From positions 2,728,001 through 2,792,000 of the forward strand of contig NZ_PYHR01000002.1 in the NCBI RefSeq assembly GCF_003121705.1: 64,000 bases of DNA, in the 5' to 3' direction. The notes beneath the pieces are model-generated. The model was not told where the DNA came from. It saw only the letters and a list, made by a program, of their open reading frames with translations, and did not search any database. Position numbers and translations under genes: made by a program. The DNA comes from Serinibacter arcticus (lineage in GTDB: Bacteria; Actinomycetota; Actinomycetes; Actinomycetales; Beutenbergiaceae). Of this stretch, positions 8,496-31,006 are shown one piece after another. The first letter of the stretch is position 1; each line of letters opens with the position of its first letter.

Positions 8496-9494
<999 letters not shown>

Positions 9495-9514
9495 GCCCCC
9501 GGCTCACACCCTTC

Positions 9515-9569
9515 TGAACGACGACGACGGCGCCGCTCACCTCCCGAGGTGAGCGGCGCCGTCGTCGTC
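9515..9569 (+). terminator. nrdF terminator hairpin; left copy of the 55-bp direct repeat
   Basis: A 24-bp perfect stem (9520-9543 with 9546-9569, 2-nt loop) starts 26 bp after the nrdF stop; the core is GGCGCCGCTCACCTC. All 55 bases recur identically at 20695-20749. In the right-hand copy the stem is longer (28 bp); here the last four right-arm bases are replaced, which suggests that this junction, not the other, is where foreign DNA was joined. Confidence 0.85.
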
Positions 9570-9621
9570 CCGGGCCCGTGCGACGGCCCCCGGCGGGAAC
9601 GCGTGTCCGTGACGTCCCGGC

Positions 9622-9830
9622 TCACGGCGCAGGACTCCGGCCGGGTTCCCGTACGGGGACGACCGCGACGCCGGCGACTGCGACAAGGATGGCCGCTGCC
9701 AGCCAGATGCTTGCGTAGCCGCCGGTCGCGACGAGCACGCCGCTGGCGAGCAGGGGCGCGAGGGCGTGGCCCAGATTGGTGGCGGTGTGAGCGAGGGCAA
9801 GGTCTCGGCCCGCTGGAGTACGGAACCGAT
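9622..9830 (-). pseudogene. MFS transporter fragment (last two membrane helices only)
   Basis: On the minus strand a frame ending in a stop at 9622-9624 encodes TPAGRDLALAHTATNLGHAL, then a Gly/Ala/Leu-rich helix, a short turn, and a final helix with WLAAAILVAVAG. This is the layout of the last two transmembrane segments of a major facilitator transporter. The similarity stops at about 9830, where a TetR coding sequence begins on the opposite strand, so at least 350 codons are missing. A transporter with no N-terminal part cannot work. It marks a rearrangement point just inside the left repeat. Confidence 0.65.
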
Positions 9831-10439
9831 CGCGCCGCGGAGCCCGCCGGGGGCAAGCGCGAGGAGATCGTCCAGGCCGCGACCCGGCTGATCGCGGAAC
9901 GCGGGTACAAGCGGGCCTCGCTCGCTCAGGTCGCCGCGCAGGTCGGTCTCACCGCGCCCGGTCTGCTGCACTACTTCCCGACCAAGGACCACCTTCTTCT
10001 GGCAGTCCTCGGTGAGAGGACCAGCAAGAGCGCATCCCGGTCGCAGGTGCCTCAGGGCCGGCCCGAGACCACCGGGGATCTGGCCTCGGTGTTGGCGACG
10101 CTCGCCCGGACCGTCGAGCAGAATGCACGGCAGCCCCTCCTCACCCAGCTGCACTCCGTGATCGTGGCTGACAGCCTGACCGAGGGGCACGCTGCCAAGG
10201 AGCCGATGCGTCGGCGCTACCGCGAGGCGCGCTCGAGGGTGGCAGCTCCCCTCGCCGCAGACGCCTCCCTCGAGGGCGACGTCGACAGAGCCCCTGCGAT
10301 AGCGGCACTCATCCTTGCTGCGCTCGACGGCCTGCAGATCCAGTGGTTGCTCGACCCTGACGCGGTCGACATGCAGGCGTCCTTCGCTGTCCTGGAAGAA
10401 GCGCTGCTCGGACTTCGCAAGGATGATGACGACCGCTAG
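9813..10439 (+). pseudogene. TetR-family regulator lacking a normal start (5' truncated)
   Basis: The TetR DNA-binding helix-turn-helix is complete (KREEIVQAATRLIAERG, then LAQVAAQVGLTAPGLLHYF) and the ligand domain runs to a natural stop. However, no ATG, GTG or TTG lies in frame between about 9790 and the domain, and the sequence upstream of about 9830 is antisense to an MFS fragment. The gene therefore seems to have lost its own start at the junction; a CTG at 9813 or readthrough from GTG 9549 would be needed. The C terminus is rich in Asp/Lys. It could still be expressed as a fusion, but is more likely inactive. Confidence 0.6.
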
Positions 10440-10760
10440 CTGATGGCCCAGTGTCGGCGCAGCCAACGGCGGCAGGACCTGAGATTTTGCCGGCGCGACC
10501 GCTCGATCTGTCCTGCCCCGCGGTTGTCAGGGGTTGACGGCGGGTGAGGCCATCGCTTCGTCGAGGTAGTCGCTGAGCGATCGTGTCTGGACGCTCTCCA
10601 GCCAGGCCGTCGGGCGGCCTGAATGCAGGCGGGGGCGCAGGCGCAGAAGTTGCCAATCAGATTGACCAGAAGCTCCGTCGCCGGGCCCGGCGACGGACGC
10701 GAGACCTGCCGAACCGTGACGAGGTGAAGGCGACTGTGCCGTGAACCATCGCCGCCGGGG
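10440..10760 (-). pseudogene. Unrecognised gene remnant
   Basis: No intact gene is visible in these 321 bases. A minus-strand frame with GRPTAWLESVQTRSLSDYLD ends in a stop near 10531, and the stretch 10648-10740 is clearly, though imperfectly, similar to 20588-20690 (both read AGAAGTTGCCAA, then TTGACC, CGGGCCC and AAGG at matching distances, with a one-base gap). Both look like decayed 3' ends of related genes. I cannot name the family. Confidence 0.4.
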
Positions 10761-11200
10761 TCACTTCCTCCGGGCGGCGTGAGTAGCTCGGTGGTACAGG
10801 TCGTACAGGTCGACCTCCCCGTCGTGTCGAACCCATTCCTCGATCGCGACCTGGAGGCAGGTGATGGCCACGGCCGCGATGGCGCGCGCCTGGAATGCCC
10901 GGTCCTCAGAGGGTGGCAGCCGTTGCTCGATCAGGGGGCGAGCTGATCTTGCCAGCGTGACTGCTTCTCGGCGTGGCCAGCGCGCAGGGCCTCGTTCCCG
11001 AACAGGAGCGTGGCCAGCTCCAGTCGGCGTTCGGCCGTGAGGTCGATCTCGTCGAGCGCCCGGAACGCTGCCTCCAAGGAGACCCACAGATCCTCGTCGT
11101 CAGGCCGCTGCGCGAGGCGTGCTGCGATCTGGCCACCCTGCTCGGCCAACCCGCTGAGCGCGAGGTCCTCCTTGTTGCGGAAGAAGTTGTAGAGGTGTTA
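10761..11200 (-). pseudogene. TetR-family regulator fragment, 5' truncated with one frameshift
   Basis: On the minus strand the sequence enters at LYNFFRNKEDLAL, the end of a TetR recognition helix region, and continues through the all-helical ligand domain to a stop at 10761-10763. The first DNA-binding helices are absent: the upstream codon is preceded by a stop, so the gene is cut at about 11200. A single-base shift occurs at the G5 run 10934-10938; adding one base gives continuous LAPLIEQRL. The frameshift may be a homopolymer sequencing error, but the 5' truncation is real on this sequence. Confidence 0.6.
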
Positions 11201-11294
11201 CTACCCGTCGCTCATCGGCGCAACAGTCCCCCGTGGTCCCCGCGCGCGAAGCCGACTCGGTCAAACGACCAGGATCTCGCAATATCGGTCAGAC

Positions 11295-11309
11295 TTGCAC
11301 ACTGTGCAA
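11295..11309. promoter_or_regulatory. Palindromic operator TTGCACACTGTGCAA
   Basis: A perfect 6-3-6 palindrome lies 56 bp before the GH2 start and about 95 bp beyond the cut end of the TetR fragment. Size and symmetry fit a TetR-family operator. It may be the leftover operator of the truncated regulator or may control the GH2 gene; no -35/-10 pair can be assigned with confidence. Confidence 0.5.
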
Positions 11310-11364
11310 CTCGAGCTTACGCTCGCCCTGCTAATCCACGGCAAGGACGACGTAGGAGACACAC

Positions 11365-14300
11365 ATGCACGGACGACGAACGCGCTCAGCGCTGGTGGCC
11401 GGAGTGGCCTGCGCGGCGCTTCTGGCGGGCACCGCGGTGACCGCCAACGCAGCACCCGCCCCCGACCCGGGCGCGGATCAGGTGATCAGTGCTGGGGACG
11501 TTGATGGCCGGAGCACCAACTTCAACAGCGACTGGAAGTTCGTTCGGGGGAACCCTGCCGGGGCTGAGGAGCTCGGCTTCGATGACGATTCCTGGCGGAC
11601 TCTCGACGTGCCGCACGACTGGATGATCGAGCAGGACTTCAATGTCACCGCCAACCCCCTCGCGGCGCTTGCCGGTCACTTGTCTGCTGGTACGGCGTGG
11701 TACCGCAAGTCGTTCACGGTGCCCGAGGTCGCGCTCGGACAGCGCGTGTCGTTGGACTTCGACGGCGTGCAGCAGATCGCCACCGTCTTCATCAACGGCG
11801 AGCAGGTCGGCGTGCACCACCACGGCTACACGGCCTTCTCCTACGACATCACCGACTACCTGACCACCGACGGCTCCGCCAACGAGGTCGCCGTCAAGAC
11901 GGACTCCCTGGACTACTCCACCCGTTGGTACGCCGGCGGTGGCATCTACCGTGACGTCGCGCTGACGGTCACCGACGCGGTGCACGTCAAGCGCGACGGC
12001 ACCTTCATCACGACCCCGACCCTGGCCGACGACCTCGCCTCGCAGGAGGCGAACCTCGCCGTCGCCACCGAGATCGAGGCCCCCGAGGACGCCTCGAGCG
12101 AGGTCACCCTGGTGACCGACGTCGTGGACGCGACCGGCGAGGTCGTGGCGACCGACACCGTGAGCGGCACCGTCACCGGCGGCGAGCACACCTTCGACCA
12201 GACGATCACGGTCGCCGACCCCGAGCTGTGGTCGATCGACCGGCCCTACCTCTACGACGTCGTCTCACGCGTGATGGTCGAGGGCGAGCAGGTCGACACC
12301 TACACGACCTCGACCGGCCTGCGGACCATCGAGTTCAACTCCGACGGTTTCGCCCTCAACGGCGAGTACGTCGAGCTGCGCGGCGTGAACCTCCACAGCG
12401 ACCTCGGGTCGCTAGGCATGGCCTACAACGAGAGCGCCGCACGCCGTCAGCTCGTGACGCTCAAGGAGATGGGCACCAACGCCATCCGCACCGCGCACAA
12501 CCCCACGGCCCGCAACTTCATCGAGCTCGCCGACGAGATGGGCTTCGTGGTCGTGGAGGAGGCGTTCGACAACTGGGAGACGCCCCGCTTCCTGGCCAAC
12601 GAGTACACCAAGTGGTGGGCCACCGACGCCGAGATGGACATGAAGGCGATGGTCCGCCGCGACCGCAACTCCCCGTCGGTCATCATGTGGTCCATCGGCA
12701 ACGAGATCACCTACGGCCCCACCAGTGCCGCGACCGCCGACAGCCTCATCGAGTGGACGAACGAGGAGGACGGCTCCCGTCCCACCACGCTGGGGAACAA
12801 CAAGTACGACGAGAACTCCCTCAGCATCCTGTCCAAGGTCGACGTGCCCGGGGCGAACTACCCCAACCCGCAGCGGATGGACGAGGTCGCCGCGCTCAGC
12901 CCGACCGGGACCTTCATCTCCAGCGAGGTCTCCTTCTCGATGCAGAGCCGCGGGTACTACTACGAGCCGAACCAGGTCATCAAGGGCCCGTACGGGACCG
13001 AGATGCAGGGCTCCTCCTACGACAACCACGTGCACGTGCAGTCCACGGGCGGCGGTGGCACGACCACGCACAGCGAGACGATCCAGCGCGACCGGAACAA
13101 CGTCCACACGGCCGGCTCCTTCGTCTGGACCGGCATCGACCACCTCGGTGAGCCCCTGCCGTTCATCAATGGTGGTTCAGGCGACAAGACCGAGTGGGCG
13201 CGCAGCACCTACACCGGCCTGATCGACACCGCGATGTTCAAGAAGGACGTCTGGTACCTGTACCAGAGCCAGTGGACCGACACCCCGATGGTCCACCTCC
13301 TGCCGCACTGGAACTGGACCGAGGGCGAGACCGTCCAGGTCTGGGCCTACACCAACGCCGACAGCGTGAAGCTCTACCTCAACGACGAGCTCGTCGGGGA
13401 GCGCACCTTCGAGGACAAGAACTCCCCGCGCGGCGAGGCCTACCGCGAGACCGCCGACGGCAAGCTCCACCTGTCGTGGGACATCCCCTTCACCCCCGGC
13501 ACCCTTCGCGCCGAGGCCTACGCCGACGGTGAGCTCATCGCCACCGACGAGGTCACCACCGCCGGCGACTCCGCGGCCATCGAGCTGACCCCCGACGCGA
13601 CCACCATCGACGGCGACAACGGCGACCTCGCCTTCATCACCGCCGACATCCTCGACGCCCAGGGCACCTTCGTCCCCCGCGCCACCGACAACCTCACCTT
13701 CGAGGTCACCGGCGGCACCCTGGTCGCCACCGACAACGGCAACCCGATCAGCCTCGAGAAGTTCCAGGGCACCAACCAGCGCAAGGCCTTCTCGGGCAAG
13801 GCGCTGGCGATCGTCCGCCCCGACGGCAGCGGAGCACCGATCCGCGTCACCGCCACCGCCGACGGACTGGAGGTGGGATCGACCGTCATCCGCACCACCT
13901 CCCCGATGTTCTCCGACGTTCCCGAGGGCGTGCAGTTCTACGACGAGATCCAGTGGCTGGGTCGCGCCGGCGTCTCCACGGGCTGGGTCCAGGCCGACGG
14001 GACCCGCGAGTACCGTCCGCTGAACTCCATCGCCCGCGATGCGATGGCAGCGTTCCTCTACCGCCTCGCGGGTTCGCCCGAGGTCCAGCTGCCGGCCACA
14101 TCGCCGTTCACGGACGTCAAGCCGGACAACCAGTTCTACAAGGAGATCGTCTGGCTGTCCCAGGAGGGCATCTCCACCGGCTGGGACAACGGCGACGGAA
14201 CCTTCTCCTTCCGCCCCCTAGACCCGATCGCGCGTGATGCGATGGCCGCGTTCCTCTACCGTTCGGCGGACTCGCCGAGCTTCGAGGTCCCGGCGATCTC

Positions 14301-14478
14301 TCCGTTCCAGGACGTGTTCACCTCGGATCAGTTCTACGAGGAGATCGCCTGGATGCACGCCACCGGTGTGGCCACCGGCTGGCAGGGCAACGACGGACGG
14401 GACTACTACCGCTCGCTGGCCCCGGTCGCTCGTGACGCGATGGCCGCCTTCCTCAGCCGCTACCACGAGCTCAGCTAG
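11365..14478 (+). CDS. Secreted GH2 beta-galactosidase with DUF4982 and three SLH repeats
   Basis: A 1037-residue exported enzyme. Residues 1-32 are a signal peptide (twin-Arg-like RRTR, hydrophobic core, AnA cleavage). Then follow the GH2 sugar-binding domain (about 45-210), an Ig-like domain, and a TIM barrel with acid/base Glu447 in WSIGNE and probable nucleophile Glu521 in SSEVSFS, the position used in the DUF4982-containing GH2 group. Next come DUF4982 (about 655-720), an Ig-like domain and three SLH repeats starting near 848, 913 and 980. The SLH repeats would hold the enzyme on the cell wall. The start has GTAGGAGAC upstream. It would release galactose from galactans or glycans, but substrate specificity is not proven. 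It lies inside the repeat-bounded segment. Confidence 0.9.
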   Translation: MHGRRTRSALVAGVACAALLAGTAVTANAAPAPDPGADQVISAGDVDGRSTNFNSDWKFVRGNPAGAEELGFDDDSWRTLDVPHDWMIEQDFNVTANPLAALAGHLSAGTAWYRKSFTVPEVALGQRVSLDFDGVQQIATVFINGEQVGVHHHGYTAFSYDITDYLTTDGSANEVAVKTDSLDYSTRWYAGGGIYRDVALTVTDAVHVKRDGTFITTPTLADDLASQEANLAVATEIEAPEDASSEVTLVTDVVDATGEVVATDTVSGTVTGGEHTFDQTITVADPELWSIDRPYLYDVVSRVMVEGEQVDTYTTSTGLRTIEFNSDGFALNGEYVELRGVNLHSDLGSLGMAYNESAARRQLVTLKEMGTNAIRTAHNPTARNFIELADEMGFVVVEEAFDNWETPRFLANEYTKWWATDAEMDMKAMVRRDRNSPSVIMWSIGNEITYGPTSAATADSLIEWTNEEDGSRPTTLGNNKYDENSLSILSKVDVPGANYPNPQRMDEVAALSPTGTFISSEVSFSMQSRGYYYEPNQVIKGPYGTEMQGSSYDNHVHVQSTGGGGTTTHSETIQRDRNNVHTAGSFVWTGIDHLGEPLPFINGGSGDKTEWARSTYTGLIDTAMFKKDVWYLYQSQWTDTPMVHLLPHWNWTEGETVQVWAYTNADSVKLYLNDELVGERTFEDKNSPRGEAYRETADGKLHLSWDIPFTPGTLRAEAYADGELIATDEVTTAGDSAAIELTPDATTIDGDNGDLAFITADILDAQGTFVPRATDNLTFEVTGGTLVATDNGNPISLEKFQGTNQRKAFSGKALAIVRPDGSGAPIRVTATADGLEVGSTVIRTTSPMFSDVPEGVQFYDEIQWLGRAGVSTGWVQADGTREYRPLNSIARDAMAAFLYRLAGSPEVQLPATSPFTDVKPDNQFYKEIVWLSQEGISTGWDNGDGTFSFRPLDPIARDAMAAFLYRSADSPSFEVPAISPFQDVFTSDQFYEEIAWMHATGVATGWQGNDGRDYYRSLAPVARDAMAAFLSRYHELS

Positions 14479-14504
14479 CAATCAGCAGTCCTGAGAACGG
14501 CAGA

Positions 14505-14538
14505 GGCCTGCGCTGGTGCACCACGCCCAGCGCAGGCC
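14505..14538 (+). terminator. Hairpin after GH2
   Basis: A perfect 12-bp stem (GGCCTGCGCTGG / CCAGCGCAGGCC) with a 10-nt loop begins 26 bp after the stop and is followed by an AT-rich ATATTTCT. Confidence 0.7.
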
Positions 14539-14575
14539 GCCGCATATTTCTCCAGCGAGATGGTCAGATCACGAC

Positions 14576-15043
14576 ATGATGCGAGGTGAACGCAGGGTGG
14601 ACCGCTCTTTCACACGCGCGAGGGCGTGGCGCCCCGTCTGGGTGGTGGAGTATCTCGAGGGCCACCTCCTCGGAGTATCGCCCGCTCTATCCGATCGCGG
14701 GCCCGAAGTCATCGCTCTCCTCCCCGGCCGCTTTGGGACCAAGAGCGTGGAGGCGGCCATCGCCGGCCTGGCCCAAACGCTCGCGCTCACCCGACTGGAG
14801 CGGTACCAGCGGGCAGTCGTACCCGCACGGAACTCAGGCGTGCGATGGAACCGGGCTCGTCGTCGAGGCAGTGTCATGCTCGATGAGTACGCATTCCTGA
14901 CGGCGACCCGCTCCCGCGTGCGACTCGATCACGACGGAATGCTCGAGATCAGCCCCCAGCCCTCCACGCAGGCCCCGCTCCCGCTCGCGACGAAGCCACA
15001 ACCTGGGTCCGCCACCGCGCCACAGGAGTCGATAGCTAGTTGA
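14576..15043 (+). CDS. Hypothetical protein
   Basis: An open frame of 155 codons from ATG 14576 (or ATG 14579). The central part has protein-like composition (VWVVEYLEGHLLG, DRGPEVIALLPGRFG, VEAAIAGLAQTLALTRLERY), while both ends are Arg- or Pro-rich. There is no membrane segment, signal peptide or known motif. No clear Shine-Dalgarno is present. Three frames are open over much of this region, so even the existence of the gene is uncertain. It lies between the GH2 terminator and a convergent TetR gene within the accessory segment. Confidence 0.35.
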   Translation: MMRGERRVDRSFTRARAWRPVWVVEYLEGHLLGVSPALSDRGPEVIALLPGRFGTKSVEAAIAGLAQTLALTRLERYQRAVVPARNSGVRWNRARRRGSVMLDEYAFLTATRSRVRLDHDGMLEISPQPSTQAPLPLATKPQPGSATAPQESIAS

Positions 15044-15166
15044 GAGAGGTCTAACGCTGGCCAAGGCAGACGTGAAGCAGCGAGGCGTACGCCGGACGCC
15101 TTCAGAGCCCCTCTGCCCTCGCACCGACTACTCGGCCAGCATCAGGCCGACTGTCGGGAGGTCTAT

Positions 15167-15793
15167 CTAGGCGAGCGAGGCCGCAGCCTGCTGAGCACCG
15201 CGCGAGAGTGCTGAAAGAACATCGTCCATCGCCTCTGCGAGGTCGTCGATCTCTTCACGAGCCCAAAGACGCGTGACCTGATTACGCGCCTCGTTGAATG
15301 AACTTGCTGCGGCACGAGTCGCGGCTCGAGCCTGAGGAGAGTGATCTGGCGCAGTGAGGACGTGACTCACCTCATCGACCCAGAGCAGTTCGTGAACCGG
15401 GACGGAACGGTTTAGTTCATCGACTGAGTCGATCATCTCGATCAGAGCCTGCAAGCCCTGACGTCCTCGCTTCTCCACCTGATGAGCCCAGGACACCTGG
15501 GCTGTGACAACAGCGCCCCAGGGGTCAGACGTTGCGCCAGCCGAACGGACCTGCGCCAGGAGATCGGCCTGTCCCATCTGCGCCGCATACCAGAACGCGT
15601 CAGCCTTGGTCTTGAAGTAGTTGAAGAACGTTCGCCGGCTCGCGCCCGCAGCTACAACGATGTGATCGATAGTCGTGGCGTCCCACCCGTTTTCCCTGAC
15701 GCAGGACAGCGTGTGTAGTGCGATCGAGTCGCGCCTGGCTCTCGCCCTTGGCCCCAGCGTCACCTCTGCGTCCACGCTCACCGGGTCAGCCAT
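15167..15793 (-). CDS. TetR/AcrR family transcriptional regulator
   Basis: A complete 208-residue repressor. The N-terminal domain has the standard helix-turn-helix: ATTIDHIVVAAGASRRTFFNYF at about residues 39-60, then KADAF. The rest is helical with no recognisable ligand signature. ATG start. No partner gene is adjacent: the flanking genes are an uncertain ORF and an unknown gene on the other strand, so its target is unclear. Base composition is lower in GC than the core genes around it, in keeping with an acquired segment. Confidence 0.85.
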   Translation of the reverse strand: MADPVSVDAEVTLGPRARARRDSIALHTLSCVRENGWDATTIDHIVVAAGASRRTFFNYFKTKADAFWYAAQMGQADLLAQVRSAGATSDPWGAVVTAQVSWAHQVEKRGRQGLQALIEMIDSVDELNRSVPVHELLWVDEVSHVLTAPDHSPQARAATRAAASSFNEARNQVTRLWAREEIDDLAEAMDDVLSALSRGAQQAAASLA

Positions 15794-15876
15794 GGCTCGA
15801 GGCTATCGCTCGGGCGGGGGCGTCCTGGTCCTATCGCCTCCTCCTCTGAGCGTTTCGGGCAAACCGAGAGTCACGG

Positions 15877-15899
15877 AACAGCGCAGGCCCTGCGCTGTT
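15877..15899. repeat. 23-bp palindrome in the 15.8-16.1 kb gap
   Basis: AACAGCGCAGG and its reverse complement are separated by one base. It lies 83 bp upstream of the TetR start, between divergent genes. It could be an operator for that TetR protein or a terminator remnant. The rest of 15794-16082 holds nothing else I recognise. Confidence 0.5.
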
Positions 15900-16082
15900 G
15901 CTCAGTGACTGCACTGCTCGTTCGCTCGCCGACTAGGCTCGCGACTGCGAGCCGCTCGTTCCGCTCTTCGAGCCTGCGCGAGGACTCGAACAAGTTGCTA
16001 ACTCAGCCGCTCCAGGGCAGACGCCCTCGTGAGCAGGCGCATGGGAGGTCGCTCCTCACAGGTCGACTAGTTCAGGGGAGAC

Positions 16083-16838
16083 ATGGGAGGGGAATCGTAT
16101 CGGGAGACGGCTAGATACGCTGGGGAGGTGAGCAACCCAGCCTTCGCACTCGCCGACATCCTCGAGTCGTGGTCGGTCGGACCTTCAGGTCCACGACAGG
16201 CTCGCATGGAGGCCGCCAAGAAGGCCGGCACAAACTACAGCGACCAGACTGTTGCGGCGATGCGTGCTCTCGCCAACCTCGTGTCCGAGCTCGATGACCT
16301 TCAGGCGCGCGGGATGATTGACGTGAACGCCCGGCACGGCATCCCCGACTGGGTGAAGGCCGTCCTCTCAGAAGATTTCCCCTGGGGTGCCGGAGTCAAC
16401 CGGACGACGCCCGCGATCTCCGAGGCAAGCCTTGCCAACCTTCGGACCATTGGGCACCTCATCGAGGTCTACGGGTCGACTCAGTTCCCCCGGTCTGAAG
16501 CGCTCGATGGAGTCATCGCCGCGATCGGAGACGCACGCAGTCACATCGAGGGCGCAGGGCTCGCCGACTCGACGAAGCACTACCTTTTCTCGGTCCTGGC
16601 GCGTATAGAGGAAGCGTTGACCTCCAGGAGGCCGCGCGACTACGTAGCTGCTGTCAACGAGTTTGTTGGGGCGACAGCAGTCGCTGAGGCGGCTGAGAGT
16701 GATCCAGAGCGCAAGGTCTGGTGGGTAGGCCTTCGCGACACGTTCGTGGACTCGTTCGCGAAAGCTGGCGGGCAATCCCTATGGGCGGGAACGGTTTTGG
16801 TCGCCGGGGGTGCGGTGAAGGCGATCACTGGGGGTTGA
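16083..16838 (+). CDS. Protein of unknown function in the accessory segment
   Basis: A 251-residue protein I do not recognise. It is mostly helical and acidic, with no signal peptide; the last about 25 residues (LWAGTVLVAGGAVKAITGG) form a weakly hydrophobic helix that might contact membrane. ATG 16083 has AGGGGAG five bases upstream and is chosen over GTG 16128, where the purine-rich sequence abuts the codon. GC content is visibly lower than in core genes. The position, with other transferred genes and a nuclease 1.5 kb downstream, makes a defence or mobile-element role possible, but nothing in the sequence shows it. Confidence 0.65.
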   Translation: MGGESYRETARYAGEVSNPAFALADILESWSVGPSGPRQARMEAAKKAGTNYSDQTVAAMRALANLVSELDDLQARGMIDVNARHGIPDWVKAVLSEDFPWGAGVNRTTPAISEASLANLRTIGHLIEVYGSTQFPRSEALDGVIAAIGDARSHIEGAGLADSTKHYLFSVLARIEEALTSRRPRDYVAAVNEFVGATAVAEAAESDPERKVWWVGLRDTFVDSFAKAGGQSLWAGTVLVAGGAVKAITGG

Positions 16839-16888
16839 TCCACCTCCGTCCCCACGGTGTTCTCGTTCTACGGTGATAGAGAACGGCA

Positions 16889-17269
16889 TGCTCGCGGCTG
16901 ATCTCGATCGCCGGCAAGAGTGCCGAAAGGGCCACTCGCACCGAGCGAACGGCTGCCTACATCACCCTGGCCACCGCCACCGCCTCCGCCACCCGGGGCG
17001 AACTGGAGCTCATCCACGCCACCGGTCACGACGCCTCCCTAAACCACCCACTGGATGAGGTGCAGCGACGCTGGACCCCATCCCCGGACGAGGCCGCAAC
17101 GGACCCCGGGCGCTCCGTGAGTTCTGGCGTGCCGGACCGCCGATGGGCTGTGGTCCTACGACTCCCTCAGCAACCAGCGCATCAGCGACACCGTTCGCGC
17201 CCAGCTCACCGCCCAGATCGCCCAGCTCATCGCCGGTGACGACGCAGAGACCGGGTCGGGCCCGTCTTG
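16889..17269 (+). pseudogene. Decayed TetR-like regulator C-terminal part
   Basis: One frame reads ERTAAYITLATATASATRG and later SLNHPLDEVQRRW. A different frame then reads DGLWSYDSLSNQRISDTVRA to a stop at about 17269. That ending matches the last helices of TetR proteins (the ADGLW-YD block). The N-terminal DNA-binding domain is absent and at least one frameshift separates the halves, so this is a remnant. Confidence 0.45.
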
Positions 17270-17320
17270 ATCGCGCTCCTGTGGGGAACTGTCCTGCACC
17301 GCGGCCTGACCCGGGCCCTC

Positions 17321-18071
17321 CGGCCAGGTCGTCGAGGCGACCTACACCGACGGCAGCATCGACACCGTTCCGTGGGACGAGCTCACCGTCTCGGACTACA
17401 GCCCCGACGTGCTCGGCGAGCAGGTGGTGACCCTCGCGCTGACTGCCGAGAACACAACGCGCGAGGCGACGTTCACCGTCGTCGTGCGCGACCGGTTCGT
17501 CGACGTCGCCGATGACAACCAGTTCGCGCTGGAGATCAACTGGCTGGCTGCCCGCGGCATCAGCACAGGATGGACCACCCCGGCCGGCCAGGAGTTCAGG
17601 CCGGTCACGCACATCGCGCGTGACGCGATGGCGGCGTTCATCTACCGTCTCGCGGGCTCGCCGGCCTTCGAGGAGCCTGAGACCTCGCCGTTCGTCGACG
17701 TGGCGCCCGGAGACCAGTTCTACCGTGAGATCACCTGGCTGGCCGAGCAGGAGATCACCACAGGATGGACCACGGCGAGGGGAGCGGAGTTCCGACCGCT
17801 CGCGCCGATCGCGCGCGACGCGATGGCCGCGTTCCTCTACCGGTACGCGGACGAGCCTGCTGTCACGCTCCCCGAGACCTCCCCGTTCACGGATGTGACG
17901 CCGAGCACCCAGTTCTACGCCGACATCGCATGGATGGGTGAGGCAGGGATCTCTACCGGCTTCCAGGGCAACGACGGGACGGCGCAATACCAGCCGCTCG
18001 GACCCGTCAACCGCGACGCCATGGCCGCCTTCCTGTTCAGGTACCAGGGCTACGAGGACCAGCTGAGCTGA
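17321..18071 (+). pseudogene. Orphan SLH tail of a secreted protein (5' truncated)
   Basis: From about 17321 the frame encodes the end of an Ig-like domain (TYTDGSIDTVPWDELTVSDY, then EATFTVVV), followed by three SLH repeats closely related to those ending the GH2 and GH43 proteins (each with STGW or TTGW and IARDAMAAF or NRDAMAAF). There is no start codon with a signal peptide: the catalytic part has been lost and the fragment abuts the TetR remnant at about 17270-17320. A GTG at 17409 could initiate a 220-residue SLH peptide, but it would not be exported. It ends with a normal stop and terminator. Confidence 0.75.
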
Positions 18072-18089
18072 TCGAGCACAGCACCAAAC

Positions 18090-18129
18090 GACGACGGGGG
18101 TGTCACCGCGAGGTGACGCCCCCGTCGTC
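18090..18129 (+). terminator. Hairpin after the SLH fragment
   Basis: An 18-bp stem (18090-18107 with 18112-18129, one G-U pair, 4-nt loop) lies 18 bp after the stop of the SLH remnant. It has the same GACGACGG base as the nrdF-type terminators. Confidence 0.75.
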
Positions 18130-18293
18130 ATTGCGCCACCCTCGCTGGACCAGAGGAAGGTCAGCAAGGTCCGGGGTCGAAGGAGCCGAACGTTCGTGGG
18201 AAGCTGCAGTCTCCGCCGTGCGAAAGTAGCGCTGATGAGTGAAGATGGCGGCGACGCGTGGGCCGGCTCGGCCCCTGGAGGAGAGCCAGATAG

Positions 18294-20312
18294 ATGCTGC
18301 TGAAGTCGTTCCAGATCTCTGACTACCGGTCGGTCCACGATAGCGGAGAGGTCGAAGTCGAAGACGCCAAGACGCTACTCGTTGGAGTGAACGAGGCCGG
18401 GAAGACGGCTGTGCTCCGAGCGTTGCAGCAGATCAATGCTCCAAGCGACACAGAGGGCTTCAGCGCACTGCGCGACTACCCGCGTTCGCGCTATACCGAG
18501 GTGCAGCGCGGGGAGAGATCTCCCGACGACGTCGTGGTCGCGAGGGCGACGTTTCGCCTGACAGATGCTGACAAGGCGCTTGTGATTGAGCACTCGCCGC
18601 TCTCGACCGATGTCGAGGTTCTGACGGTCTTCCGGTACCTGGACAACTCGCTGAAGTGGAACTTCGGTCACGCAAGACTCTTTGCAGTCCAGGACGATAT
18701 CGAGAAGGACCTGGCCCGGCTCCGGGCGCATTTGGCGAATCGGACCGACACAGGCGAAGTGGTCGCAGCGCTTGACGCTCTGAACACTGGGCGTTCCGCG
18801 ACAGCTCCGTTGAACGGCGTCTTCGCGACCAAGCTCACGGCCTGGCTCGCCGAGGCGTACCCGCTCATCGATGAGGACGATGAGAAGGAGGAGCAGCGCT
18901 TCGACCGCATCAAGGGGCACGTCACGCTGGCGGTCTCGGTTGCAGCTGCTGGGAAGGCCGTGCGAGCGCGGATCCCGCTGTTCGTCTACTACTCGACGTA
19001 CTTCACGGTTCGGCCACGCATCAACCTCGCCGCCCTGGCAGCGCGCGAGGCGGCCGGAGACATCGACGTCGAGTACGACTTCGGCAACCTGTGTCTGCTG
19101 CGCCTGTTGGGACACACCGCTGCGGAGCTGTCGGAGCTCGCCGCCGGGGAACCTCGCCCTGAGAACTACCGAGGGGGTGCCGGCAGCGCCGAGTACCAGA
19201 CGGCGATGACGGATCGTCAGGCGGCGCTCGATGACAGGCAGTACAGACTCAACGCAGCCAGCGTTGACCTGACCCGCTCGATCCGCGAAGTCTGGGGTGA
19301 CGAGTCCGTTCAGCTCCGACTCGTCGTCGACGGTCAGTACCTCAAGGTCGTGGTCGTCGACGACATCGGTGTCGAGGTCGAGCTCGATCAACGCAGTGAG
19401 GGCTTTCGCTGGCTCGTTTCGTTCTTCGTGGTTTTCAAGGCCCAGGCGAGGGATAATCTCGCCAACGCGATCCTGCTCCTCGATGAGCCCGGACTCAGTC
19501 TGCACGCGCTCAAGCAACAGGAGTTCCGGAAGACGGTCTCGCGGCTCGCCGAGGACAACCAGGTGGTCTACTCCACCCACTCACCCTTCATGGTGGGCAC
19601 GGATGAGCTTGACCTCGTTCGGATCGTCGAGATGACTGATCGCACGACCGGCACGCGAGTGCACACTCGGATGGTCGTTGACGACCCCCGCTCGATCTAC
19701 CCTCTTCAGATCGCCCTGGGGTACGAGTTGGCCCAGAGCCTCTTCGGGCAGAGCCGGAACCTGATCTGCGAAGGTCTGACCGACATGATGTACGTAGAAG
19801 CGCTCAACATCGCCTTCACTGACGCGGGCAAGGGACTGCGGACTGGCGTCAGCATCGTCCCGGCCTCGGGGGCTAGCAAGGTCGCCTACTATGCCACCAT
19901 CCTCGTGAGCCAGAACCTGAAGGTCGCGGCGCTACTCGACTCGGACCAAGCTGGAAACCGCGCCGCCGCTCAGGATGATCTCGTCCAATTACTGACCTCC
20001 AAGAAGATCCTGCGGACGAAGGACTACTGCAGCCCAACGGTCTCGCATCCCGAGATTGAGGACCTCCTGCGCGAAACCCTGGTTCGCGTTGCTCGCGACG
20101 ATATGGGTTGGGACGTCACGGCCACGGCGACAGCGCAGCCTCACCGTCCAATCATCGACATCCTCACCAAGGAAGTCAGCGGCTTCTCCAAGTTCAAGCT
20201 CGTTCGGGGGTTCATCCGCTGGATCGGTTCGCATGAGGTCACCGACCTCACAGCCGATGAGCAAGCAGGGGTCGCGAAGCTGCTCGCCGCGATTAATAAG
20301 GCGCTCGTCTAG
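18294..20312 (+). CDS. OLD-family ATP-dependent nuclease (AAA ATPase + TOPRIM)
   Basis: A 672-residue overcoming-lysogenization-defect (OLD) family protein. The N-terminal ABC-type ATPase has Walker A GVNEAGKT at 31-38 and Walker B ILLLDEPGLSLHA at about 396-408, followed by a STHSPFM switch. The C-terminal TOPRIM nuclease has ICEGLTD (about 490) and the acidic LDSDQAG (about 547). Such proteins nick or degrade DNA and often block phages. No UvrD-like helicase (GajB) follows, so this looks like a class 1 stand-alone OLD rather than a Gabija pair. ATG start with GGAGGAGAG upstream. It is the last intact gene inside the repeat-bounded segment and has lower GC than core genes. Confidence 0.9.
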   Translation: MLLKSFQISDYRSVHDSGEVEVEDAKTLLVGVNEAGKTAVLRALQQINAPSDTEGFSALRDYPRSRYTEVQRGERSPDDVVVARATFRLTDADKALVIEHSPLSTDVEVLTVFRYLDNSLKWNFGHARLFAVQDDIEKDLARLRAHLANRTDTGEVVAALDALNTGRSATAPLNGVFATKLTAWLAEAYPLIDEDDEKEEQRFDRIKGHVTLAVSVAAAGKAVRARIPLFVYYSTYFTVRPRINLAALAAREAAGDIDVEYDFGNLCLLRLLGHTAAELSELAAGEPRPENYRGGAGSAEYQTAMTDRQAALDDRQYRLNAASVDLTRSIREVWGDESVQLRLVVDGQYLKVVVVDDIGVEVELDQRSEGFRWLVSFFVVFKAQARDNLANAILLLDEPGLSLHALKQQEFRKTVSRLAEDNQVVYSTHSPFMVGTDELDLVRIVEMTDRTTGTRVHTRMVVDDPRSIYPLQIALGYELAQSLFGQSRNLICEGLTDMMYVEALNIAFTDAGKGLRTGVSIVPASGASKVAYYATILVSQNLKVAALLDSDQAGNRAAAQDDLVQLLTSKKILRTKDYCSPTVSHPEIEDLLRETLVRVARDDMGWDVTATATAQPHRPIIDILTKEVSGFSKFKLVRGFIRWIGSHEVTDLTADEQAGVAKLLAAINKALV

Positions 20313-20441
20313 GCCGTGCGAAGTCGGCTGGGATCCGAGGGACGACCCTCTGCGGCTGTAGGGCGGGGCGAGGGAGCCTGGCGCAGCTCAACACGATTCA
20401 CTGCCCCGCGGGAGGCAGCCCACCGGCAGTGGAGGAGCGCT

Positions 20442-20694
20442 CTAGGGGTGCTGGGCCGGTCGCTCGTCGACCTGCTTCCATTGCTCCGAAACTAGCGCCC
20501 CAATCTCACTCGGGCACACGAGACGAAGGTCGCCCATGGAGGACATCGGGACCGAACCGGGACCTGGCGCGACCTGGATAGACCCAGAAGTTGCCAAGTA
20601 GGTTGACCGTGAGTGATGCTCTCGGGCCCAGTGAGGTCTCGAGGATCGCCAGATTCTCGTCAAAGGTAAAGGCCACTTTGCCTGTCGTCTCACA
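20442..20694 (-). pseudogene. Unrecognised gene remnant beside the right repeat
   Basis: Minus-strand frames contain KVAFTFDENLAILETSLGPR, LTVNLLGNFW and, in another frame, LRLVCPSEIGALVSEQWKQV ending at a stop at 20442. No single frame keeps all of these and no start is visible. Bases 20588-20690 are similar to 10648-10740 near the left end of the segment. I cannot name the family. The remaining part of the gap 20313-20845 shows no other gene. Confidence 0.4.
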
Positions 20695-20753
20695 TGAACG
20701 ACGACGACGGCGCCGCTCACCTCCCGAGGTGAGCGGCGCCGTCGTCGTCGTTC
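20695..20753. terminator. Right copy of the 55-bp direct repeat; 28-bp stem hairpin
   Basis: Bases 20695-20749 are identical to 9515-9569. Here the stem is a perfect 28 bp (20696-20723 with 20726-20753, 2-nt loop), with outer bases GAACG/CGTTC, four pairs longer than in the left copy. It lies 93 bp before the M20 peptidase start. The full symmetry suggests that this copy keeps the original right-hand junction of the nrdF terminator. Confidence 0.85.
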
Positions 20754-20845
20754 GCCGAGGTTCCGACACGGCTACCCGACGGCCCGCCGCCCAGGCTCAC
20801 CATCTCGACCTCTCACGCGCCTCCGACCTGGGGCACGATGGCCGG

Positions 20846-22048
20846 ATGACCGACGTCTCCCAGTCCCCGGCGGAGCTCTACCGCGACCTGCACCGCCACC
20901 CGGAGCTGGCGTTCCAGGAGACGCGCACGGCAGGCATCGCTGCGGAACGACTGCGGTCGGCGGGCTACGACGTCGTCACCGGGATCGGTCGCACCGGGGT
21001 GGTAGGGGTCCTGCACAACGGGGACGGCCCGACCGTGCTCCTGCGCGCCGACATGGATGCGCTCCCGGTCCGGGAGGACACCGGACTGGACTACGCCAGC
21101 GAGGTCGACGGAGTCATGCACGCGTGCGGTCACGACGTCCACGTCGCGTGCCTGGTCGGTGCCGCCGATCGGCTCGTCGAGACCCGACAGGAGTGGTCGG
21201 GCACGGTGGTCGCGCTCTTCCAGCCTGCCGAGGAGGGCGGCGGCGGGGCTCAGGCCATGATCGATGACGGGCTCTACGAGAAGGTGCCGGTGCCGGACGT
21301 CGTGCTGGGTCAGCACGTCGGGCCGGCCCCCGCCGGTGCGGTGGGGGTGCACCCGGGTTCGGCGTTCGCCGGGGCCAACAGTCTCGACGTCACGCTCGTC
21401 GGCCGGGGTGGTCACGGTTCCCGCCCGGAGACCACCATCGATCCGGTCGTGCTGGCCGCCGCGGTCGTCCTGCGGCTGCAGACGATCGTGGCCCGGGAGG
21501 TGGCCCCCCAGGAGACGGCGGTCGTCACGGTCGGGCGCCTCCACGCGGGCACCACGAACAACGTCATCCCCGACTCCGCGACCCTCGGTCTCACCGTGCG
21601 CGCGTTCACCGAGGAGGTGCGCGTGCGGATCCTCGACGCGATCGAACGGATCGTCCGCGCCGAGGCCGCCGCGTCCGGAGCTCCTGCGCCGTTGATCGAG
21701 CACGTGGAGTCCTTCCCGGTCCTGGTCAACGACGTCCCGGGTGCTGAACGCATCGAGGCTGCGTTCCGCGCGGCGTTCGGGGACGCCGCCGTGCTCGACC
21801 CCGGCCAGGTCAGCGGCAGCGAGGACGTCGGACTGCTCGCGACCGCGGCCGGAGCGCCGCTCGTCTACTGGATCCTCGGTGGAGCCGACACGCCGTCGTA
21901 CCTGGCGGCCGCAGCCGCCGGCACCCTGGATCGCGACGTGCCCTCCAACCACTCGCCCCACTTCGCACCCGTCATCGAACCGACACTCACCCGGGGTGTC
22001 GAGGCGCTCGTCACCGCCGCGCGTGCGTGGCTCGCACCGGCACGGTAG
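20846..22048 (+). CDS. M20 family metallopeptidase / amidohydrolase (hippurate-hydrolase-like)
   Basis: A 400-residue cytoplasmic di-metal hydrolase of the M20D type (AmhX, hippuricase and IAA-amino-acid hydrolase relatives). Metal ligands and catalytic residues lie in ADMDALPV, ACGHDVHV, QPAEEGGGG and the C-terminal SNHSPHF. The GGHGSRPE and TTNNVIPD motifs of the lid/dimerisation domain are present. It cleaves N-acyl amino acids or related amides; the substrate is unknown. ATG 20846 is chosen because family similarity begins there; an overlapping ATG at 20838 runs into a stop. It is probably the original downstream neighbour of nrdF. Confidence 0.92.
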   Translation: MTDVSQSPAELYRDLHRHPELAFQETRTAGIAAERLRSAGYDVVTGIGRTGVVGVLHNGDGPTVLLRADMDALPVREDTGLDYASEVDGVMHACGHDVHVACLVGAADRLVETRQEWSGTVVALFQPAEEGGGGAQAMIDDGLYEKVPVPDVVLGQHVGPAPAGAVGVHPGSAFAGANSLDVTLVGRGGHGSRPETTIDPVVLAAAVVLRLQTIVAREVAPQETAVVTVGRLHAGTTNNVIPDSATLGLTVRAFTEEVRVRILDAIERIVRAEAAASGAPAPLIEHVESFPVLVNDVPGAERIEAAFRAAFGDAAVLDPGQVSGSEDVGLLATAAGAPLVYWILGGADTPSYLAAAAAGTLDRDVPSNHSPHFAPVIEPTLTRGVEALVTAARAWLAPAR

Positions 22049-23869: not shown

Positions 23870-26800
23870 ATGACGCAGACGTCATCCGGTGCACCCCCGT
23901 CACCGATCACCGCCCCCCACCGCAGGTCGGCCGGCCCGTTCCTGCGGGCCGTCGCCGCCCTCGCCGCGATCCCCGTCGGTCTCGTCGGCCTGACCGCCGT
24001 CGGTGCCGCCGCCGACCCGACCGACCCGGCCGTCGCCGTCCCGACGCCGATCGGTGCGGCCGTCGTCGCGAACGGCACGCCCGAGCTGCCCGAGGAGGTC
24101 ACCGTCCGCACGGCCGCCGGCGCCACGCGCGAGGCCGCCGTCGAGTGGGACACCTCCGACCTGGTCTTCGACCGCCACTACGCGACCGTCCCGGTCGCCG
24201 GGCTCGTCGAGGGCACGCTCGCCACGACCGCCTACGTCGAGGTCGTGCCCGAGGACCTCGCCTACTTCATCGACTCCGGCACGGCCGGCCAGGTCTCCAC
24301 GTCGTTCGACGCCGTGGCCGCGCTCGAGGACGGTCTGCTCAACGCCGCCTCCGACAAGGCCTACGCCGCCGGTTCCTGGGGCTACAACGCCTCCGGTTAC
24401 GACGGCACGCGGCGCCCCAGCCCGTACGACTCCAAGGACAAGGCCTCCAACGGTCTGTACGGCATCAACAACTCCGCGCTGCCGCTCAGCTACACGCTGT
24501 CGGGCCTCGAACCAGGTACCTACACGATCACCGCCGGCGTGAACGAGTGGTGGAGCGGTCCGCGCACGCTGCGCGCCTTCGCCTCGGGCGCCGGCCTCGC
24601 CGCCGACACCCCGGTCGGCAACCAGGTCGTCGTCAACAGCTCCTCGCGCAGCGCCACGCTCTCGGGCACCGTGACCACGACGGCGGCCGGCGACGTCACG
24701 CTCAACTTCCGCCGGACGGCCGGCACCGAGGCCCCCGCGGTCTCGTGGGTCGCCGTCGCCCGCGGCACGGTCGCCGTCGACACGACGCCCGTCGTCGTTG
24801 CCGCCCCGACGATCAGCGTCCCGACCGGCGTCTACGAGACCGCGCAGCAGGTCACGCTCGCCACGACCACCGCCGGCGCCTCGATCTACTACACGACCGA
24901 CGGCTCCGTGCCCTCGCGCGCGAACGGCACCCGCTACAGCGCGCCGATCGAGGTCACCTCCGACACCTCCGTCCAGGCCGTGACCATCCGCAACGGCACG
25001 GCCAGCGCCGTCGTCACCGCGGACTACCTCATCGACCCGGTGCCCACGAGCCCGTACACCGCCCCGCCGGTCGGCCGCACCTGGTACGACACGAACGGCG
25101 ACTCCATCCAGGCCCACGGCGGCGGGTTCCTGCAGCACGAGGGCTGGTTCTACTGGATCGGCGAGAACAAGGCGCACGACCGCGCCGTCCTCAACGCCGT
25201 CTCGCTCTACCGCTCGCAGGACCTGCTCAACTGGGAGCACGTCCACGACATCGTCACCACCGAGACGCCCGGCGTCTGCGAGACCGGCCTCTACCCGAGC
25301 GCCGCACTCGCCTCCGAGGGCGACGAGTGCAAGATCGAGCGCCCGAAGCTCCTCTACAACGAGGCGACGGACAAGTTCGTCATGTGGGGCCACTGGGAGA
25401 CCGAGAACTCCTACTCGGCCTCGCACGTGATCGTCGCGACGAGCGACACGATCGACGGCGACTACGAGATCACGGGCAACTTCCGCCCGGGCGTCGGCGT
25501 CGTCGGCACCGAGCACGCCGACCCGACCTACCCCGGCACGGACGGCCTGTGGGGCTACGGCTCGCGCGACTTCACGGTCTTCAAGGACCCCGACTCCGCC
25601 AAGGCGTACCTGTTCAGCACCGAGGACCACCAGAACATGCGCGTCTACGAGCTGAGCGACGACTACACGACCGTCAAGCTCGACACGTCCTACCGCCTGT
25701 TCGCCGGCGGTCACCGCGAGGCCCCCGCCGTCGTGAAGATCGACGGTCGCTACTTCGTGATGACCTCGGGCCAGAGCGGCTGGTACCCCAACCAGACCCG
25801 CGTCGCCTCGACGACCGACCTGTCCGACCCCGAGGGCTGGTCCGACCTCAGCCTCGTGGGCAACAACACCTCGTTCTACAGCCAGCCGACCAACATCATC
25901 ACGGTCGAGGGTGAGGCGGGCGAGCGCTCCTACCTCTACATGGGCGACCGCTGGAACTCCAAGAAGCTCGGCACGTCCACCTACGTCTGGCTGCCGCTCG
26001 AGATCGACGGCACCGACGTCAGCCTCACCTACCAGCCCGGCTGGTCGTTCGACCCGGTGACGGCGGAGATCACGACGCCGCGCGTCGAGCTGGTCTCGCA
26101 GGGCAAGCCGGCCACGGCCTCCTCCGAGACGACGCCGGCGTCCCGCGCCAACGACGGGATCGTCACGAACCTCAACCTGCAGGGCGACAGCACCAACTAC
26201 TGGCAGCCGTCGACCGTGCCGGCGAGCTGGCAGGTCGATCTCGGCGAGGCCCGCGACCTGGCGCGCATCGACCTGTCGTGGCGCTCCTGGAACGGCTCCG
26301 AGAGCCGCAGCACCTACTCCGTCTACGGCTCGCTCGACGGCACGACGTGGGAGCGCATCGCCCAGCGCGAGGCCAACCGTCTCGTCGCCTTCACCACGGA
26401 CGACCTCGAGGGCACCTACCGCCACGTCCGCGTGGACATCTCCTCGGTCAAGAACGACCACAACGGCAACGACGCGCACTGGGCCGCCGGTCTGGTCGAG
26501 GTCCAGGTCTACGCGGAGGCGCCGCCCGAGCCGATCCGGTTCGCCGACGTCGCCGACGGCGACCAGTTCTTCACGGAGATCGACTGGCTCGCGAACGCCG
26601 GCATCTCGACCGGCTGGGTCGACGAGGACGGCACGCGGGAGTTCCGCCCGCTCGCCCCGATCGCCCGCGACGCCATGGCGGCGTTCCTCTACCGGCTGTC
26701 GGGCTCGCCCGACGTCCAGCTGCCCGAGGTCTCGCCGTTCACCGACGTCGACCCGAGCAACCAGTTCTACGAGGAGATCACCTGGCTCGCCCAGGAGGGC

Positions 26801-27115
26801 ATCTCCACGGGCTGGGTCGACCCGGCGACGGGGAAGGCGCAGTTCCGCCCGCTCGAGCCGATCGCGCGTGACGCGATGGCGGCGTTCCTCTACCGCCTGG
26901 CCGACGAGCCGACGTTCGACGCCCCGGCCACCTCGCCGTTCACGGACGTGGCCACGACCGACGCGTTCTACGCGGAGATCGCGTGGCTCGCGCAGTCGAA
27001 GATCGCGACCGGCTGGGTCGGCAACGACGGCACCTCGGTGTTCCAGCCGCTCAACCCGGTCAACCGCGACGCGATGGCGGCGTTCCTCTACCGCTACGTC
27101 CACGACCGCGGCTGA
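23870..27115 (+). CDS. Secreted GH43 (exo-beta-1,3-galactanase-like) with F5/8C module and three SLH repeats
   Basis: A 1081-residue exported glycosidase. The N terminus has a long signal peptide (RR, hydrophobic core near residues 30-45). An Ig/CBM-like region follows, with a chitobiase-C-like repeat (about 321-391, YYTTDGSVPS). The GH43 propeller (about 402-738) starts with WYDTNGDSIQAHGGG, a motif of the exo-beta-1,3-galactanase subgroup. Then come an F5/8 type C (CBM32-like) domain (about 741-883) and three SLH repeats (891-1081). ATG 23870 has GAGGAAGAG upstream; an in-frame ATG 20 codons earlier lacks one. It would trim arabinogalactan side-chain cores at the cell surface. Substrate is inferred from subgroup resemblance only. 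Confidence 0.87.
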   Translation: MTQTSSGAPPSPITAPHRRSAGPFLRAVAALAAIPVGLVGLTAVGAAADPTDPAVAVPTPIGAAVVANGTPELPEEVTVRTAAGATREAAVEWDTSDLVFDRHYATVPVAGLVEGTLATTAYVEVVPEDLAYFIDSGTAGQVSTSFDAVAALEDGLLNAASDKAYAAGSWGYNASGYDGTRRPSPYDSKDKASNGLYGINNSALPLSYTLSGLEPGTYTITAGVNEWWSGPRTLRAFASGAGLAADTPVGNQVVVNSSSRSATLSGTVTTTAAGDVTLNFRRTAGTEAPAVSWVAVARGTVAVDTTPVVVAAPTISVPTGVYETAQQVTLATTTAGASIYYTTDGSVPSRANGTRYSAPIEVTSDTSVQAVTIRNGTASAVVTADYLIDPVPTSPYTAPPVGRTWYDTNGDSIQAHGGGFLQHEGWFYWIGENKAHDRAVLNAVSLYRSQDLLNWEHVHDIVTTETPGVCETGLYPSAALASEGDECKIERPKLLYNEATDKFVMWGHWETENSYSASHVIVATSDTIDGDYEITGNFRPGVGVVGTEHADPTYPGTDGLWGYGSRDFTVFKDPDSAKAYLFSTEDHQNMRVYELSDDYTTVKLDTSYRLFAGGHREAPAVVKIDGRYFVMTSGQSGWYPNQTRVASTTDLSDPEGWSDLSLVGNNTSFYSQPTNIITVEGEAGERSYLYMGDRWNSKKLGTSTYVWLPLEIDGTDVSLTYQPGWSFDPVTAEITTPRVELVSQGKPATASSETTPASRANDGIVTNLNLQGDSTNYWQPSTVPASWQVDLGEARDLARIDLSWRSWNGSESRSTYSVYGSLDGTTWERIAQREANRLVAFTTDDLEGTYRHVRVDISSVKNDHNGNDAHWAAGLVEVQVYAEAPPEPIRFADVADGDQFFTEIDWLANAGISTGWVDEDGTREFRPLAPIARDAMAAFLYRLSGSPDVQLPEVSPFTDVDPSNQFYEEITWLAQEGISTGWVDPATGKAQFRPLEPIARDAMAAFLYRLADEPTFDAPATSPFTDVATTDAFYAEIAWLAQSKIATGWVGNDGTSVFQPLNPVNRDAMAAFLYRYVHDRG

Positions 27116-29428: not shown

Positions 29429-29440
29429 GGACGCCACAAC

Positions 29441-29528
29441 CCCCTCGCGGGTGGTGCAGAAGCCCCTCGCCGGTGGTGCGCAACCCCCTCGCGGAGGGTG
29501 CGGAAACCCCTCGCGGATCACGAATGGG
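29441..29528. repeat. 22-nt tandem repeat array, family A (4 units)
   Basis: Four units start at 29441, 29463, 29485 and 29507, exactly 22 nt apart, each beginning CCCCTCGC. The consensus of the first 20 bases is CCCCTCGCGGGTGGTGCAGA. The array follows the ROK stop by 12 bp and ends 20 bp before the -35 box of the sugar ABC operon. There are no unique spacers, so it is not a CRISPR. An eight-unit array of the same family is at 58745. Confidence 0.9.
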
Positions 29529-31003: not shown

Positions 31004-31006
31004 TCC

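Follow-up and report, generated by a model that had tools for sequence, protein, structure and literature searches.

Accessory DNA at the nrdF terminator hairpin of Serinibacter arcticus and an end repeat shared with an insertion in a sister species

Tn7 inserts at the terminator of glmS, and group IIC introns sit behind terminators. According to excerpts from the reports on TnSha1 and IS1272, these elements target hairpins, including those of terminators, with no duplication of the target, and TnSha1 has hit one plasmid terminator at least four times (PMC4923244, PMC5678879). The Streptomyces island PAISt is reported to integrate at the palindrome TTCATGAA, at the 3' end of bacA (PMC4057263). 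In a survey of 80 species, half of the hotspots of horizontal gene transfer (HGT) were without a mobile element and 27% were without integrase or transposase; in the excerpted parts of that paper, Oliveira et al. (2017) regard the existence of many novel integrase-lacking elements as very surprising and propose recombination at the flanking core genes (PMC5635113). The route by which genes enter hotspots without mobile elements is an open question. The locus examined here lies 3' of nrdF, the gene for the small chain of ribonucleotide reductase, in Serinibacter arcticus (RefSeq assembly GCF_003121705.1, contig NZ_PYHR01000002.1). The stretch analyzed, called the window, comprises 64,000 nucleotides of this genome (G000), at G000:C2:2728001-2792000, and contains an 11-kb accessory segment that lies between two copies of a terminator hairpin.

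The account favored here, with a probability of roughly 45%, is that a mobile segment with a 113-bp end entered the nrdF terminator and that the hairpin was duplicated by recombination between terminator copies. It is the repeated end, present at the terminator in both species, that is unexpected here, rather than the 55-bp duplication. The argument depends on the following features, where G001 and G002 are sister species in the same genus (three species of the genus were compared in all):

8520-9494, + strand: nrdF, ribonucleotide reductase small chain (Pfam PF00268, E 1.1e-96)
9515-9569, unstranded: left copy of the 55-nt hairpin, in terminator position 3' of nrdF; a homologous single hairpin is present in G001 (L033:1911-1952)
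20695-20749, unstranded: right copy of the 55-nt hairpin, with its stem at 20696-20753
20583-20694, + strand: intact end repeat (113-column model), ending ...GTCGTCTCACA and abutting the right hairpin
10642-10748, + strand: damaged internal copy of the end repeat, in the same orientation as the intact one (model R2, 48.3 bits, E 1.5e-10)
G000:C2:738996-739108: third copy of the end repeat, by eye 3' of a carbohydrate locus

An earlier reading of this DNA, made without database searches (the sequence-only reading), had described two identical 55-nt hairpin copies, and the repeat-family listing and inspection of the sequence bear this out, with a direct repeat that is exact at both positions and covers the hairpin in each. 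The left stem is the shorter, as had been claimed, with 23 mismatch-free bp against 27 bp on the right and a 4-nt loop; the lengths given earlier, 24 and 28 bp, counted one more inner pair. Relative to shuffles, the left hairpin folds with a z-score of -8.6 and the right with -11.0, and none of 100 window shuffles matched the 50-nt hairpin. Just 0.42% of the window is covered by perfect hairpins whose arms measure at least 10, so a segment end that abuts a hairpin is unlikely by chance. A scan of all of G000 with a 32-nt core pattern (30 fixed bases, up to 3 mismatches) returned two sites only, the two hairpin copies, and the genome-wide repeat that had been named as the outcome damaging to an island did not appear. 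The hairpin is a member of a terminator style of G000, represented by 17 other hairpin sites that were selected from the own-genome matches of a model of end repeat plus hairpin (R1); by eye, several of these sites lie directly 3' of stop codons. The best ungapped match among them is 44/52, versus 52/52 for the two nrdF-side copies, so the pair are mutual copies rather than separate instances of the style. At E 1, model R1 matched every one of the 24 family genomes, mostly at plain hairpins, with scores of 103.5 and 99.5 for the two full G000 copies, 63.6 for the G002 copy with its half hairpin, and 52 to 55 for the best plain hairpins. Local duplication and a generic repeat were ruled out as explanations by the presence of two copies only and by their closer identity than that of the 17 other sites. 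CCGG comes after the left copy, just as it does in G001, and after the right copy comes GTTCGCCGAG, which is nearer to the right flank in G002; these short likenesses are only suggestive. Since the single copy of G001 has the same CCGG, the asymmetry of the left copy is weak as a sign of the foreign-DNA junction that the sequence-only reading saw there.

The order in G002 is nrdF, GCACGACGGCGGCGCC, an 11-kb insert (L034:1931-12953) ending in ...CTCACA, and GCTCACCTCGGGTGGGCGGCGCCGTCGTCGTCGTC. The insert contains genes for a LacI regulator, a GH36 melibiase and a sugar ABC transporter, as well as an intact 1153-aa SLH gene. Its flanks are two parts of one hairpin, and joining them in exact register gives an uninterrupted 21-bp stem (24 pairs, one bulge), the best fold among 289 register pairs (-46.4 kcal/mol, versus -43.9 kcal/mol for the next, which adds 8 bases from each insert end). 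By eye, the joined 5' arm differs from the window arm at 1 of 21 bases. Because the joined flanks restore the whole stem, the insertion was blunt, with neither duplication nor loss of the target, and the hairpin halves that exactly flank the insert make G002 a case of duplication-free entry into the hairpin. The insertion lies inside the stem in G002 and at the stem base in the window, where the hairpin is duplicated in full.

The final 113 bp of the G002 insert are related to window positions 20583-20694, and both abut a hairpin and end in ...CTCACA. In the window this end meets the right hairpin at its 5' base, and 20583-20694 is therefore taken to be the right end of an inserted segment. 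The outer border is sharp: the last 35 nt are 91% identical between the window and G002, and the next 20 nt are 30% identical without gaps, a fall past the repeat tip that results from the different hairpin registers. Over the 60 bp before the repeat, no similarity was found between the copies (0.23-0.37 ungapped). The repeat stops sharply at CACA and is followed by hairpin sequence in three registers (at the stem base in the window, 20 bases deeper in G002, and ~7 deeper for the 739-kb copy), which suggests separate insertions. A model of the repeat (R2) was built from these three copies, which match it by construction, at 122, 120 and 119.5 bits; the damaged fourth copy, which lacks most of the last 12 nt, is independent of it. 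A search of 396 genomes of the order, with stricter filters that lose some weak matches, gave R2 matches in 5 of 396 at E 0.005, and the strong ones were limited to G000 (three) and G002 (one), both of the same genus. An 18-mer of the end repeat with up to one mismatch occurred in 2 of the 396 genomes, both again of this genus. The match in G323, which by eye lies inside a cytochrome oxidase gene, and the weaker, partial matches in G304 and G087, all three in other families, were taken as chance. Directly after the damaged repeat, positions 10741-10790 contain TGAAC and a weaker GC hairpin overlapping the end of an open reading frame (ORF), either a decayed terminator or chance. A limited literature search returned no account of an nrdF terminator hotspot or of the 113-bp repeat, which is a weak negative.

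The blunt insertion within the G002 stem and the duplicated hairpin in the window would also be in keeping with breakage of a long palindrome in replication, followed by capture of foreign DNA through end joining or template switching, and Ku and LigD are frequent in actinobacteria. The shared ends would then be coincidental, and random capture would not give the same 113-bp end at both insertions; such breakage is a highly improbable explanation. Alternatively, the 113-bp repeat may be a small RNA or a 3' regulatory element that naturally ends in a terminator and was spread by gene transfer, rather than the end of a mobile segment. The repeat contains the inverted repeat AGGYAAAG/CTTTGCCT, with one compensatory pair change, after which come 11 nt and, in the copy of the window, a strong terminator. 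However, 166 of 500 shuffles reached this covariation among three sequences, the covariation term of the consensus fold is unfavorable, the single-copy folds are weak to moderate (z -1.4, -0.2, -2.8), and no Rfam match came near its gathering score. Furthermore, only the right hairpin half follows the repeat in G002, the left half being 11 kb away at nrdF, and the RNA explanation is considered quite unlikely. Rfam matches to miRNAs (E down to 7e-7) fell far under the gathering scores and were taken as hairpin artefacts. A protein remnant on either strand was rejected on frames that by eye are inconsistent across the copies. A rolling-circle (IS91-like) or IS21/Tn7-like end was also dropped, although either would agree with the ...CA tip, the inverted repeat inside it and the second box.

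To return to the favored account, a mobile segment with the 113-bp repeat (...CTCACA) as one end would enter the nrdF terminator hairpin on its 5' side and leave the target unduplicated. The degraded repeat at 10642-10748 may be the end of an older segment, new segments being added next to the hairpin and older ones pushed towards nrdF. The two copies point this way, since the damaged repeat is nearer nrdF and the intact one at the hairpin, which would place the older segment nearer nrdF if entry always occurs at the hairpin. The complete second hairpin at nrdF is most simply seen as the product of homologous recombination between terminator copies: the donor would be DNA of a relative, as a circle or a fragment, with the segment already abutting a hairpin, and crossing over at the resident 55-nt hairpin would give the order nrdF, hairpin, foreign DNA, end repeat, hairpin. 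The inserting enzyme would have acted from elsewhere, being found in neither segment.

Several points weigh against this account. Six-frame Pfam scans (E up to 0.01) found no integrase or transposase in the read-through frames of 9570-20698, in agreement with the sequence-only reading, and none in the G002 insert. No inverted second end rose above the shuffle level in the window segment or the G002 insert, and none was found near the 739-kb copy. The 739-kb copy abuts a terminator-like sequence (41/52) that shows no folding (z 0.10), and no clear terminator accompanies the damaged fourth copy, which has lost most of its tip, so that nrdF is the only secure terminator target. There is no 55-bp duplication in G002, and in this respect the earlier proposal of an island at a terminator palindrome falls short; what stands of it is accessory DNA at the nrdF terminator, as seen from the single hairpin of G001, the split hairpin of G002 and the shared end repeat. 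A length of 55 bp is short for RecA recombination, and the comparison covers only three species of the genus, without an empty site from the window's own species, of which no further strain was found. The empty site anticipated in relatives (nrdF, hairpin and M20 peptidase gene in uninterrupted order) was not seen; G001 and G002 have no close relative of M20 (best identity 37%), and the right flank is variable. The sole second end-like match above shuffles in the window segment is the damaged copy, in the same orientation; the G002 insert has none, and by eye TGAGA/TCTCA occurs at or near the ends of the G002 insert.

The identical 55-nt direct repeats at both borders could instead be attL and attR of a classical island, with the terminator as attB, a tyrosine integrase whose gene was lost, and the conserved two-box sequence beside the right copy as a possible arm site. 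A palindromic target at the 3' end of a gene is known in Streptomyces from PAISt (PMC4057263). An integrase with a 55-bp core gives the order in the window but leaves G002 unexplained, where an insert with the same end splits the hairpin and has no direct repeats, and no integrase remnant was found in six frames of the window segment or the G002 insert; a classical island is thus very unlikely. The G002 insertion, blunt, within the stem and without duplication, fits with a transposase like that of IS1272/TnSha1 (IS1182 family) that cut the hairpin bluntly, in which case the 113-bp repeat would be the right end of a transposon and the hairpin duplication a later accident. Known elements of this kind target hairpins, including terminators, without target duplication; the same excerpts report that part of the stem-loop is deleted or replaced (PMC4923244, PMC5678879), whereas in G002 the stem is regained in full. 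Neither segment yielded a transposase or an inverted partner for the end; an IS1182-family transposase in particular was absent from both segments, with the rest of G000 not searched for it. This origin is judged unlikely. A group II or group IIC intron was ruled out by the missing RNA match in the window and the G002 locus: no Rfam match to group II intron RNA reached the gathering score in the window or L034, and a permissive scan of the left end in G002 gave nothing relevant.

Entry of a mobile segment into the nrdF terminator leads to a broader proposal, which is doubtful, namely that a new family of mobile elements exists in the genus. Its members would have a constant 113-bp end with two conserved boxes and, 11 nt from the tip, a small inverted repeat. 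They would vary at the other end, encode no recombinase of their own, enter the 5' arm of a terminator bluntly (at nrdF twice, in the same orientation), carry carbohydrate and defence cargo, and form tandem stacks at the hairpin.

By sequence comparison, the stretch 3' of nrdF is an integration hotspot of the genus, with conserved flanking genes and differing content between them in five genomes that share the same right neighbour. The gene nrdF was located in 33 of 39 genomes (own included), and 15 of these loci were compared. Among the named records listed by a search that may omit near ones, the closest nrdF sequences include those of Oerskovia and Cellulomonas, at no more than 87%. The conserved neighbour lies nearest to nrdF in G006, at 0.26 kb; the interval is 4.5 kb in G001, 5.7 kb in G007, 18.0 kb in the window and 20.6 kb in G002. 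Downstream of nrdF, G001 has a single hairpin of the same build (L033:1911-1952), then a 745-aa gene, a 627-aa HSP90-like gene and the conserved neighbour, which aligns with window position 27510. The 745-aa and HSP90-like genes (L033:2089-6184) occur behind the nrdF terminator in both G001 and G002; the former has no Pfam match in G001 and no relative in the window's genome at E 0.001. To the right of the second hairpin as well, from M20 to ~23.8 kb, the window differs from G001 and G002, where the best identity to the M20 peptidase is 37%, so the 11 kb is just part of a variable stretch. In G011, matches to the genes that come next (window 28200-31891) lie further out, and no nucleotide match of at least 120 bp to this part was listed within the stretch for the remaining ten compared loci. 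The outcome that would have spoken against an island, relatives with the same genes between the hairpins, did not occur among the 15 loci or, by DNA, the 16 genomes. The DNA comparison with these 16 genomes found only the SLH piece and the end repeat to be close, both in G002 (tblastx comparisons were swamped by GC-rich noise). The SLH piece (17318-18150) is 96% identical between the window and G002, compared with ~90% for nrdEF, a sign of recent exchange, and with 81 to 85% for the later conserved genes; exchange of the accessory DNA probably postdates the species split.

The genes of the window segment and its right flank are as follows:

9549-10439, + strand: ORF with a TetR-family repressor (TetR_N at residues 107-153, E 1.9e-13)
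9622-9810, - strand: partial MFS transporter gene (Pfam MFS_1 at E 0.0024, short of the curated cut-off; covers profile positions 120-184 of 347, read-through frame; coordinates derived from the residue range)
10761-11087, - strand: 108-aa ORF, by eye like a TetR C-terminal piece, no Pfam match
11365-14478, + strand: GH2 glycosidase with C-terminal SLH domains (Pfam)
15167-15793, - strand: TetR-family repressor (Pfam, E 2.5e-8)
16083-16838, + strand: 251-aa protein of unknown family, no Pfam or PADLOC match
17318-18150, + strand: 3' end of an SLH gene with its terminator, sharing 96% identity with the corresponding part of the intact 1153-aa SLH gene of the G002 insert
18294-20312, + strand: OLD-type nuclease (AAA_15, OLD-like TOPRIM; Pfam)
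20846-22048, + strand: M20 peptidase, right flank, without a close relative in G001 or G002
27272-28129, + strand: conserved neighbour gene, marking where the variable region as a whole ends on the right (matched at the nucleotide level in G001, G002, G006 and G007)

The gene content given by the sequence-only reading agrees with Pfam (TetR, GH2 with SLH, TetR, an SLH fragment and OLD-type AAA/TOPRIM), the MFS fragment being weak. The generally lower GC content that it described is not uniform, with ~0.67-0.73 at 9500-11000, 0.61-0.70 further into the segment, 0.63-0.65 in nrdEF itself and 0.70-0.74 beyond 20750. The TetR gene at 15167-15793 shares 47 bp at 83% with a remnant in the G002 insert. 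Distant relatives of the 251-aa protein (29-31% identity) occur in 2 of 28 other genomes searched (G006 and G017), and a plasmid search gave none. The SLH gene is truncated on its 5' side in the window. The OLD-type nuclease, possibly a defence gene, has relatives of 47-48% identity on plasmids of Microbacterium, Paracoccus and Sinorhizobium, and no partner gene was recognised beside it. SLH domains are encoded at 13908-14463, 17495-18044 and 26539-27097, and each genome in the genus has at least 15 to 20 SLH-coding places, a possible substrate for recombination between accessory genes. An origin from plasmids or phages was unsupported by DNA searches: a near search of 9400-20900 against plasmids gave one record only, a 93-bp match within nrdF; distant searches with the right ends of the window segment and the G002 insert gave just E 0.05 to 0.6 for plasmids and E 0.3 for phages; and no exact 18-mer match was found in viral contigs.

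Elsewhere in the window, positions 59211-61030 are 98% identical over 1.8 kb to a stretch ~2 Mb away (approximately G000:C2:729122-730940), a pair that reflects recent duplication or gene conversion. Tandem units of 22 bp (like CCCCTCGCCGGTGGTGCGGAA) form arrays at 29416-29540 and 58720-58954, 29 kb apart, and a further 22-bp array with a different unit is located at 36168-36277. Positions 43723-43907 match the actinobacterial sRNA Ms_IGR-5 in Rfam (71.2 bits).

A repeated end at two insertions in one terminator is a searchable handle by which the recognising enzyme could be found, and if terminators behind conserved genes are targeted, they would be natural safe harbours, useful for gene placement. 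As with Tn7 and group IIC introns, the region behind a conserved gene is used; no Tn7 genes were found in the segments and no intron RNA was matched. The locus resembles HGT hotspots without recognisable mobile elements, as characterized in parts of the survey, in its variable foreign content between conserved genes and the lack of an integrase, and differs from them in that the insertion border is marked by a repeated end sequence (PMC5635113). PAISt is likewise an actinobacterial island at a palindrome at a gene end, with flanking direct repeats (here, in the window) and one internal repeat; it has a tyrosine recombinase and an 8-bp target, in contrast to the 55-bp hairpins here, where no recombinase was found (PMC4057263). 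The closest known behaviour is that of IS1272/TnSha1. Compared with the excerpted accounts of these elements, the locus differs in that no transposase and no inverted repeat partner were found, the cargo is 11 kb and the G002 stem is undeleted, and it is alike in its hairpin target (often a terminator), blunt entry (in G002 without target duplication), repeated hits on one terminator and transport of cargo genes.

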